The translations under genes and the position numbers were made by a program. Shown here in pieces: positions 1,487 to 4,491 of a stretch of 64,000 bases of DNA. Below the pieces are notes generated by a model. It was not told the origin of the DNA and made no database searches. It saw only the letters and a list, made by a program, of their open reading frames with translations. This DNA is from Maribellus sp. YY47 (lineage in GTDB: Bacteria > Bacteroidota > Bacteroidia > Bacteroidales > Prolixibacteraceae). The DNA lies in NCBI RefSeq assembly GCF_023111095.1, contig NZ_JALGYW010000016.1:1-64000 (forward strand), written 5' to 3'. Numbering within the stretch: position 1 is the stretch's first letter; the number at the start of each line of letters is the position of its first letter.

Positions 1487-2752
1487 TTAATGCATGTTTT
1501 TGATAATCTCGTCCGCAAACTCTGAGGTTGTCAGCAAAGTGGCTCCTTCCATCTGAGAATGCAAATCGGATGTTACTTTTCGTTTGGCAAATACGTGCTC
1601 CATGGCATCGTAAACATGTTCGGCAGCTTCGTTCCAGCCCAGGTATTCCAGCATCATCACTCCCGAAAGGATCAGCGAGCCGGGATTGGCTTTTCCGGTG
1701 CCAGCAATATTTGGCGCCGTTCCGTGAGTGGCTTCAAAAATGGCATAGCCGCTTTGGTAGTTGATGTTTGCACCGGGAGAAATTCCGATTCCGCCAACCA
1801 TTGCTGCCAACTGATCCGAAATATAGTCTCCGTTCAGGTTCATGGTGGCAATTACCGAGTGGTCCCACGGGTGTAACAGCGATTCCTGTAAAAAAGCGTC
1901 GGTGATGCAATCTTTTACGATCACCTTACCGTCTTTCTTGGCTTCATCGAGTGCTTTGTCGGCATCCAGTTGGCCTTTTTCTTTTTTGATCTTTTCGTAC
2001 TGTCTCCAGGTGAAGGTTTGCAGCTTGAACTCCGTTTCAGCCAGGTCGTAACTCCAGTTTTTGAAAGCTCCTTCGGTGTATTTCATGATGTTCCCTTTGT
2101 GAACGATCGTTACCGAAGGCAGTTTTCGCTGAATGGCGTATTCAATGGCCGATTTGGTCAGTCGTACCGAGCCGTCTTTTGAAATCGGTTTTACACCGAA
2201 AGAAGAACTTTCCGGAAAACGGATCTTGTCCACACCCATTTCGTTGATCAGGAAATCACGAAACTTTTTACTCTTTTCGTCTCCAGCCATGTATTCGATG
2301 CCGGCATAAATATCCTCGGTATTTTCACGGAAAATATGCATGTCGACCATCGACGGGTAGCGAATGGGAGAGGGCACACCTTTGAACCAACGCACCGGGC
2401 GAAGGCAAACGTACAAATCCAGCGTTTGGCGTAGTGCAACGTTCAGCGAACGAATTCCTTCCCCAACCGGAGTCTGCAGCGGGCCTTTAATCCCGATTAA
2501 ATGCTCCTTAAAAGCGTCAAGCGTTTCCTGCGGAAGATAATTTCCGGTTTCCTTGTAGGCTTTTTCCCCGGCCAGCACCTCTTTCCATATCAGTCTTTTC
2601 TCATCGCCGTAGGCTTTGGCAACCGCTGCATCGAGCACCCGCTGCGAGGGGCCTGTAATGTCTTTGCCAATTCCGTCTCCTTCAATGAATGGAATCACCG
2701 GCTGGTCCGGTACAAAAAGCTTTCCGTTGACTATTTTGGTTTTATTTGTCAT
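1487..2752 (-). CDS. icd: NADP-dependent isocitrate dehydrogenase, bacterial (E. coli Icd) type
   Basis: Oxidatively decarboxylates isocitrate to 2-oxoglutarate with NADP. The core [15 protein letters not shown] near the N-terminus, SLNVALRQ with the phosphate-binding Ser region, [10 protein letters not shown] and [14 protein letters not shown] are all present, and 421 residues matches E. coli Icd (416). The open frame extends nine codons upstream, but the ATG at 2752 ([11 protein letters not shown]) places the start where homologues begin, so I prefer it. A second, distantly related NADP isocitrate dehydrogenase lies upstream in the same operon, with a GxxExxY cassette between them. Redundancy or condition-specific use of the two enzymes is inference. 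Confidence 0.94.
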
Positions 2753-2776: not shown

Positions 2777-2803
2777 CACGCAGATTACACAGAAAAACGC
2801 AGA
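2777..2803 (+). repeat. Left inverted repeat of the GxxExxY cassette
   Basis: 27 bp beginning CACGCAGATTACAC and ending ACGCAGA. It is the imperfect reverse complement of 3229-3255 (20 of 27 positions). It ends one base before the stop codon of the GxxExxY gene. Confidence 0.6.
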
Positions 2804-2804
2804 T

Positions 2805-3188
2805 TTATATATTGTTAGCTATTCGTTGTATTGCACTTGAGATATTATCGGTGTTGAAATTAACCAGTATGCCTAATTTTTTGTCGGCTAATTTCAGGTA
2901 CGAAACTGTTTGTTTAAAGTACAGTTTATTCATCGTTTCAACCGATTTTATTTCAATTATTACTTTGTTCTCCACCAATATATCAATACGAAATCCTTTT
3001 TCCAGGTTTTTACCTTTATAGTTTACTGGTAATTCAACCTGATGATCTACATCATAACCCATTTCCCGGAGTTCATAGATTAGAGCTGCCTCATAAACAG
3101 ACTCCAACAGACCTGGCCCAAGTGTATTGTAAACTTCAAATATTGCTCCTCTGATGTCGTAAGATATTTGATTTTCACTTAATTCCAT
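2805..3188 (-). CDS. GxxExxY protein (PD-(D/E)xK nuclease fold)
   Basis: A 127-residue protein with the defining GLLESVY motif (Gly26, Glu29, Tyr32) and a PD-(D/E)xK-like core: Asp69 in RIDIL followed by Glu79-Ile-Lys81 in IIEIKS. The family is named for this motif and is common, often multicopy, in Bacteroidota and other environmental bacteria; its biological role is not established as far as I know. Here it is complete. It lies between two isocitrate dehydrogenase genes in the same orientation, so it would be co-transcribed with TCA enzymes. The flanking inverted repeats suggest a separately acquired unit. Nuclease activity is predicted only from the fold motif. Confidence 0.88.
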
Positions 3189-3228
3189 AACTAATTTTCA
3201 CTTAAGTCAGGATAGTTTCTTGTTTTTG

Positions 3229-3255
3229 TCTGCGTACATCAGCGAAATCCGCGTG
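3229..3255 (-). repeat. Right inverted repeat of the GxxExxY cassette
   Basis: 27 bp whose reverse complement begins CACGCGGATTTCGC and ends ACGCAGA, matching the left arm at 2777-2803. It lies 40 bp upstream of the GxxExxY start and just past the stop of the upstream isocitrate dehydrogenase gene. Confidence 0.6.
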
Positions 3256-3264
3256 CACACTTAT

Positions 3265-4491
3265 TTAATTCAATTTAGCCTGAAGATTTTCATCCAGCGC
3301 TTCCAGGAATTGTTCGGTAGTCAGGTAGTGTTCTGCTTTTAATTCTGCACCGTAAACGATCAATGCAAGGTCCTTGGTCATTTTTCCTGATTCCACCGTT
3401 TCAATACAAACTTCTTCCAATGCATTGGCAAAATCGATCAACGGCTGGTTGTCATCCAGCTTGCCGCGGAAAGCGAGTCCACGTGTCCAGGCAAAAATCG
3501 ATGCGATCGGGTTGGTCGAAGTCGGTTTGCCTTGCTGGTGCTGACGGTAGTGGCGCGTAACCGTCCCGTGAGCGGCTTCGGCTTCCATCGTTTTTCCATC
3601 CGGAGTAATCAATACGGATGTCATCAGTCCAAGAGAGCCGAATCCCTGCGCAACGGTGTCGCTTTGTACGTCGCCGTCGTAGTTTTTACAAGCCCATACA
3701 AAGCCTCCGTCCCATTTCAATGCAGCAGCCACCATGTCATCGATCAAGCGATGTTCGTAGGTAATGCCGGCCGCAGCAAATTTATCCTTGAATTCTTCTT
3801 CGTAGATTTTCTGAAAAATATCTTTAAAACGACCATCGTATTTTTTCAGGATGGTGTTTTTGGTTGACATGTACAAAGGCCATCCTTTATCCAGCGCCTG
3901 GTTCATACACGAACGGGCAAATCCGGTAATCGATTCGTCGGTGTTGTACATGGCCATGGCCACTCCGTCGCCTTCAAAATCATAAACCTCGTGCGAAACG
4001 GTTTCGCCACCGTCTTCCGGTGTAAAGGTGATGGTTAGTTTGCCTCTTCCTTTTGTTACGAAATCAGTTGCTTTGTACTGGTCGCCAAACGCATGACGTC
4101 CGATGCAGATAGGCTGTTTCCATCCCGGTACAAGGCGTGGAATATTAGAGATCATAATCGGTTCGCGAAATACCGTTCCTCCCAGAATGTTACGAATGGT
4201 ACCGTTGGGCGATTTCCACATGTGTTTTAACCCAAACTCTTCCACACGGGCTTCGTCGGGTGTGATAGTGGCACATTTTACGCCCACACCGTATTTTTTG
4301 ATGGCATTGGCGGCATCCACCGTAATTTGGTCGTCAGTAGCGTCACGACTTTCAACTCCGAGATCGTAATATTTTAAATCGATGTCGAGATAGGGAAGAA
4401 TTAACTTTTGTTTGATGAAATCCCAAATAACCCTGGTCATTTCATCTCCGTCGAGCTCTACTACCGGGTTTTGAACCTTGATCTTTTGCAT
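3265..4491 (-). CDS. NADP-dependent isocitrate dehydrogenase, eukaryotic-type subfamily
   Basis: A 408-residue enzyme starting [20 protein letters not shown], the signature of the homodimeric subfamily that includes mitochondrial and cytosolic eukaryotic IDH. Other hallmarks are [28 protein letters not shown] and [15 protein letters not shown]. It catalyses the same isocitrate to 2-oxoglutarate reaction as the icd gene downstream but belongs to a clearly different subfamily. It follows aconitase by about 130 bp that contain a GC-rich hairpin element. Its position directly after aconitase suggests it is the original partner in this operon, but which enzyme carries the main flux cannot be read from sequence. 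Confidence 0.94.

Follow-up and report, generated by a model that had tools for sequence, protein, structure and literature searches.

The window, the whole stretch of 64,000 nucleotides of Maribellus sp. YY47 analysed here, contains a short cassette in which a GxxExxY gene is bracketed by inverted arrays of short repeat units, in the gap between two isocitrate dehydrogenase (icd) genes of an operon (Table 1). The names icd, citrate synthase, and aconitase were assigned to the operon genes by eye. Under this naming, the statement of the preliminary description that the unit splits two isocitrate dehydrogenase genes was upheld, with the GxxExxY gene and both flanking icd genes on one strand. 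GxxExxY is the single long open reading frame (ORF) of the unit. The ATG matched in relatives was used as the start of the downstream icd gene, and a GTG at 2779, which falls inside the array, was set aside.

Table 1. Features of the cassette and its operon neighbors, in positions of the window.
Feature	Position	Strand	Basis and details
Whole cassette (array, GxxExxY gene, inverted array)	2777..3255	-	Repeat comparison and motif scan; G063 lacks it at this gap
Upstream end array	3229..3255	-	Gene sense CACGCGGATTTCGCTGATGTACGCAGA; units CGCGGAT / CGCTGAT / CGCAGAC; 13.0 of 13.5 points
Downstream end array, inverted	2777..2803	+	+ strand CACGCAGATTACACAGAAAAACGCAGA; units CGCAGAT / CACAGAA / CGCAGAT; 13.0 of 13.5 points
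GxxExxY gene, 127 aa	2805..3188	-	TIGR04256 142 bits, PF13366 138 bits, pLDDT 94.9, fold 4ic1
Isocitrate dehydrogenase, operon neighbor upstream of the cassette	3265..4491	-	Named by eye
Second isocitrate dehydrogenase, operon neighbor downstream of the cassette	1487..2752	-	Named by eye

Two 27-bp sequences in inverted orientation had been described around the gene, matching at 20 of 27 positions and with the left copy ending one base from the stop codon, and both observations were confirmed. Among the inverted repeats listed between positions 2000 and 4200, this pair is the longest; shuffling the two gaps 400 times never gave as good a match, and the stop codon begins at 2805. Each copy is an array of three 7-nt units of the form C-R-C-N-R-A-K, with unit starts 9 and 10 nt apart; the third unit of the downstream array (CGCAGAT) runs to 2804, and the gene-sense sequence is TCTGCGTTTTTCTGTGTAATCTGCGTG. 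When the first 124 kb of the contig were scanned for the motif with a threshold of 13 of 13.5 points, the two window arrays were returned and no third, and the reversed-motif control gave one match. The seven mismatches in 27 positions could be those of a weak repeat that surrounds an ordinary gene by chance, but the result of the shuffles and the recurrence of arrays at other GxxExxY loci (see below) leave this explanation with a negligible probability.

The window gene scored 142.1 bits against TIGR04256 (cut-off 35), which places it in the GxxExxY family, and well above the cut-off of 22 for PF13366; Pfam returned only PDDEXK_3 and a weak SfsA match for the gene, and no HUH (Y1) transposase match in the window unit. 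Among 92 aligned GxxExxY sequences, E79, K81, Q93, G24, G26, and L108 were invariant, and D69, Y97 (90% or more), and H90 nearly so. We take the D, E-x-K, and Q-x3-Y residues to be RecB/Cas4-type PD-(D/E)XK motifs. An AlphaFold2 model built from the 92 sequences (mean pLDDT 94.9, pTM 0.89) had chain B of 4ic1 (SSO0001, a Cas4) as its closest solved structure (probability 1.00, E 1.9e-3, TM 0.53–0.57), followed by lambda-exonuclease entries. Fold and conserved residues liken the protein to Cas4 and lambda exonuclease, although it is only 127 aa long and the search of solved structures with the model gave no match at E <= 0.001. With a moderate fold match, we predict a nuclease with a PD-(D/E)XK fold of RecB/Cas4 type. 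Purifying selection on the GxxExxY gene at the icd gap was shown in three ortholog pairs, the third of which was saturated, with dN/dS of approximately 0.08 for the other two (dN 0.088 and dS 1.125; dN 0.017 and dS 0.250). PMC8934634 reports a GxxExxY domain with a cas4 gene and a reverse transcriptase beside it. Literature on GxxExxY, TIGR04256, and PF13366 gave no account of end arrays or cassettes, with subscription journals mostly outside the search, and the repeat-unit strings had one literature match, which was a primer from a study of Bacteroides fragilis.

The comparison of the icd gap among relatives that the preliminary description had proposed revealed cassette-free states in congeners. 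Among 27 icd loci fetched, 19 of the genus had both icd genes adjacent: the gap held an intact cassette in 5/19 (the window, L054, L055, L058, and L062), a broken cassette in 2/19 (L050 with a stop and L061 with a frame shift), the arrays minus the gene in 2/19 (L052 and L057), another hairpin in 4/19 (L051, L053, L056, and L059), and none of these in 6/19, where it was 13–140 bp long. The nearest relative, G063, with icd 98% alike, is one of these six, and its gap is 13 bp. The other hairpin is approximately 100 bp long and reads CTGTCATTTCGAACGCAGAGAGAAATCTGT...TTCGAAATGACA. The states of the gap were intermixed on the icd tree, and the GxxExxY genes of this gap formed one group (support 90) with two subtypes approximately 0.6 apart, spread over the host tree. 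A single insertion of the icd cassette was not upheld; the two subtypes fit either an old insertion with exchange or repeated insertion.

At a second operon gap, which separates two ABC-transporter genes, 21 loci of another genus were compared and showed the same turnover. The gap held an intact GxxExxY gene in 2/21, a decayed one in 1/21, and a gene of the S23 four-helix family (TIGR02436) in 3/21, and two unrelated protein families therefore use one gap. Solo array hairpins were found in 4/21, a single array in 1/21, another hairpin in 3/21, other sequence in 2/21 (one a longer ORF), and a short gap of 17–48 bp in 5/21. The hairpin in L319, L324, and L331 is of a third type, CTAAATCTCCCCGAAGGGGAGACTT... 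or a variant, and the longer ORF in L337 (G035) resembles, by eye, a protein of phage antirepressor/BRO type.

That the GxxExxY gene and its end arrays form one inherited unit, gained and lost in operon gaps, is well supported. A resident gene with a host function, flanked by arrays that serve as operators or mRNA hairpins, would be in keeping with the purifying selection in three ortholog pairs (one saturated) and with the closeness of the arrays to start and stop. However, the gene is patchy among congeners, gene-less arrays occur at the same gap, intact copies stand alongside broken ones, and solo arrays are dispersed over genomes, and we consider a resident gene hardly probable.

The association of arrays with GxxExxY was examined in 60 genomes of the family, 48 of which had a GxxExxY match (up to 17 in one genome). 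From 209 matches, 114 loci were taken, comprising the best match per genome plus 80 down the score list; several loci at contig ends or with stops were omitted, as was the broken copy L006/L007. An ORF was obtained for 112, and 200 bp of flank was available on either side of 108. The CRCNRAK-type array motif (threshold 12 points, within 200 bp) was drawn from family loci and is therefore not independent of this set, in which arrays in any orientation were detected at 70/108 GxxExxY loci versus 3/28 S23 loci from the same genomes, arrays in the expected orientation at 68/108 versus 0/28, and arrays on both sides at 38/108 versus 0/28 (Fisher p 2e-7 for the association); 38/108 GxxExxY loci were below threshold. 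Upstream arrays in the expected orientation were found at 48/110 loci within 150 bp, 13/108 at 150–300 bp, and 4/108 at 300–450 bp, with 9, 5, and 3 in these bins for the reversed-motif control.

In a motif-free test, the upstream flank was scored against the inverted downstream flank, and a score of at least 12 was reached by 62/108 own pairs versus 56/864 mismatched, 6/432 shuffled, and 2/105 distant pairs. S23 genes are a valid negative control for CRC-type arrays and were rejected as one for inverted repeats; because they have inverted arrays themselves, that control was taken from other ORFs, 15/142 of which scored at least 12, with four of the 15 (L054, L055, L058, and L062) being GxxExxY genes of the icd gap. 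The two end copies of one cassette were often imperfect matches.

A cross-phylum set comprised the best 80 of at least 581 confirmed loci in named genomes, and 69/80 of these had an array scoring at least 12 within 200 bp (41/52 in Bacteroidota and 28/28 not labelled Bacteroidota), compared with 23/780 shuffled flanks and 0/80 at 600–800 bp out, where some loci were without DNA. Among these best 80 of at least 581, the non-Bacteroidota titles include Cyanobacteria, Planctomycetota, Acidobacteriota, Nitrospirota, SAR324, Ignavibacteria, Chlorobiota, Neomarinimicrobiota, Desulfobacteraceae, Geobacter, and Lamprocystis. The reversed-motif control was not clean (22/80, again for the best 80 of at least 581), probably because a backwards array partly fits the motif; genome-wide, reversed matches were rare (19 versus 739). 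The CGCAAAG clade is over-represented in the set because the best 80 of at least 581 loci sit close to L045, and at least one locus is a duplicate (L223 and L162 of the congener G010, which have identical proteins, are one locus). Bacteroidota-type GxxExxY cassettes at L227 and L253 lie on contigs labelled as Bifidobacterium breve and Carnobacterium MAGs and are probably misbinned. Independent of the derivation of the motif were the 28 non-Bacteroidota loci (two with doubtful MAG labels) and seven plasmid records.

These plasmid records were the 7/72,556 with GxxExxY; an array scoring at least 12 was present in 4/7 and absent in 3/7, and in the six annotated records the gene was in sense with both neighbors (e.g., between fabD and fabG). 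Carriage by phages or plasmids was rejected, given a phage collection without a match and the few plasmid records, and 24 viral stretches that were checked included no relative.

The window's genome itself has seven TIGR04256 matches, two of them fragments of one broken copy. The other GxxExxY copies inspected in it had multi-unit repeats nearby with differing sequences, of the unit kinds CACAAAG, CGCAAAG, CACGGAT, and CGCTGAT, with the copy of the last kind (L004) scoring under threshold. One fixed 27-bp end was rejected as the mark of the unit, the unit sequence varying among loci of one genome. Accordingly, of the minimal, transposase-free unit with its own ends that had been proposed at the outset, the single gene with recurring ends stands, but not a single conserved 27-bp sequence. 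A strict pattern taken from the window end matched 11 genome sites at no more than two mismatches (0 for the reversed control); all except the window pair were distant from GxxExxY genes, and several formed inverted pairs, separated by some tens of bases, within a longer repeated element. At L008, L010, L012, L015, and L016, the repeated element has an inverted array pair at its center. L010 is a solo element of approximately 280 bp in the window's genome; the corresponding site in G063 is empty and aligns cleanly. No inner sequence common to the cassette and the solo copies was seen by eye.

Strict arrays numbered 739 in the 60 family genomes versus 19 control matches. The number of arrays followed that of GxxExxY genes (rho 0.52, or 0.45 as a partial correlation that controls for S23 number and genome size), with a partial correlation of -0.12 with S23 number when GxxExxY was held fixed. 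Twelve of the 60 genomes were without a GxxExxY match, and six of these 12 still have 3 to 20 arrays (20 in G011). G043, G049, and G007 have 111, 74, and 77 arrays and 2, 4, and 7 GxxExxY matches, respectively. Neighbors were ordinary at 20 loci picked for solo arrays, and no cargo gene was seen there by eye. The expectation that the ends always flank GxxExxY genes thus held in part: the ends recur at GxxExxY loci (70/108 in the family; 69/80 across phyla, for the best 80 of at least 581), but gene-less arrays lie elsewhere. Repeats without the gene in unrelated contexts had been named in the preliminary description as a refutation; we take the gene-less repeats to be solo copies, akin to MITEs, and do not see them as refuting the cassette.

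End type was compared with protein clade on a tree of 182 of 192 GxxExxY proteins, many forks of which are weak. Unit position 7 (G or T), the last base, required three changes on the tree, compared with an average of 23.2 after label shuffling; the corresponding figures were 13 and 36.1 for the second base, 19 and 33.1 for the fifth base, and 35 and 60.6 for the combined unit label, with none of 300 label shuffles as low in any of these cases. The family set alone behaved likewise (29 changes versus 48.9; 0/300 as low). Three units were found in 152/190 arrays, three being the least that the method returns. Spacings were 8 and 8 with AG units and frequently 9 and 10 with AT units. What had been described as 27-bp ends are arrays of three units of approximately 8–10 nt that differ between protein clades.

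One 19-member clade (SH-aLRT 98) accounts for 18 of the 38 family loci that have no CRC-type array, and a second end type, in which TGTCTGAA precedes units that end in GATT (..GATT..GATT), was found at 17/19 members of this clade versus 2/173 other GxxExxY loci and 0/28 S23 loci, the pattern having been drawn from flanks in the analysed set itself. The TGTCTGAA ends had 77 copies in 22/60 genomes and none in the control, and they occurred in 11/15 genomes with a typed clade gene versus 11/45 others (p 0.0014), a co-occurrence that is partly circular because ends beside the genes count. In G013 (84% complete, no GxxExxY match), 14 TGTCTGAA..GATT ends were found; in 11 regions fetched from it (L357–L367), the TGTCTGAA ends were intergenic and no cargo gene was seen by eye. 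The match of clade to end type suggests that the protein recognizes its own ends, although the same agreement could arise from joint inheritance without recognition.

The S23 genes share this architecture with other units. Inverted multi-unit arrays of their own were found at 16/28 S23 loci, with units such as GAACTCAG, GCTTGCAA, GTAGTGA, and CAGTGGT (L105–L134 flanks; L318, L320, and L327). S23 proteins are by family not nucleases, so a nuclease is not required for this architecture. In sense with both neighbors were 26/27 S23 genes (0 antisense), and among 93 GxxExxY loci with both neighbors visible, 79 were sense, 2 antisense to both, and 12 mixed. According to PMC4990558, S23 is the family of rRNA intervening sequences. 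The 23S rRNA intervening sequences resemble the cassette in having one small ORF in an inverted-repeat hairpin, sense within a transcript; unlike them, the cassette lies between icd genes rather than in rRNA and encodes a different protein family, and S23 genes in the analysed genomes also occupy operon gaps, with different array units. An intervening element at the RNA level, in which the arrays would fold in the operon transcript, the hairpin be processed, and the unit spread via RNA, is in keeping with the sense bias of both GxxExxY (79 to 2) and S23 (26 to 0) and with the intervening-sequence family to which S23 belongs in that source. Nonetheless, the need for a host promoter also explains the strand bias, the predicted fold is that of DNA nucleases of Cas4/lambda-exonuclease type, and solo arrays also occur in other gaps, which may not be transcribed, making spread via RNA improbable.

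At the icd gap, the ABC-transporter gap, and the solo element, no target-site duplication was seen by eye, the flanks having diverged, and no exact insertion boundary was found. The cassette could be a passenger, moved by host activity on arrays or hairpins (template switching, recombination, or a transposase in trans), with the protein having another role. The unrelated S23 genes in the same architecture with other units argue for such a passenger, as do the commonness of solo arrays, also in some genomes without a GxxExxY match, and the failure to see a target-site duplication. Against it stand an end type that tracks the GxxExxY protein clade, array numbers that follow GxxExxY rather than S23 once each is held fixed, and retained nuclease motifs; on balance, we regard a passenger as unlikely, if still a serious contender.

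In REP/RAYT systems, an enzyme gene lies between inverted short repeats, many gene-less hairpins occur, and repeat type is matched to enzyme clade. The GxxExxY cassette is alike in that its gene is flanked by inverted repeats also occurring as solo copies. However, RAYT is an HUH (Y1) transposase whereas the cassette has a PD-(D/E)XK protein, the repeats there are single palindromes rather than three-unit arrays at the ends, and the GxxExxY cassette spans phyla (best 80 of at least 581 loci). MITEs and insertion sequences similarly have inverted ends, gene-less copies, and presence or absence at a site, but the cassette is without a transposase and without a target-site duplication that was found. 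A homing endonuclease gene interrupts its own recognition site; the solo array pairs resemble gene-less cassettes and are a candidate site only.

Our preferred reading, held with about equal belief and doubt, is a REPtron-like, transposase-free cassette in which the RecB/Cas4-like nuclease acts on the ends that flank its gene. Because end type goes with protein clade, a nuclease acting on the arrays is the simplest account, and we infer from this its part in cassette movement. The cassette, placed sense-wise in an operon gap, would be transcribed by the host operon, and the GxxExxY nuclease would bind the unit array of its own clade and cut at or near the array ends, perhaps extruded as hairpins. 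Cutting would help to copy or move the cassette into other intergenic gaps, with the protein as the presumed driver, and gene-less solo arrays may be moved in trans by the same GxxExxY nuclease. More broadly, we tentatively propose, while leaning against it, a new class of mobile unit with matched three-unit end arrays and clade-specific ends, in which GxxExxY and S23 compete for operon gaps and the nuclease, possibly as an oligomer, reads the array and spreads cassette and solo arrays across phyla without a transposase, plasmid, or phage.

If GxxExxY gene and arrays are one mobile unit, a common protein family would gain a role, and a large class of three-unit repeats, dispersed between bacterial genes, would be accounted for. 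The family would also offer many natural pairs of enzyme and site, with binding specificity readable from the flanks, and reading the locus as a cassette makes the function of GxxExxY directly testable.
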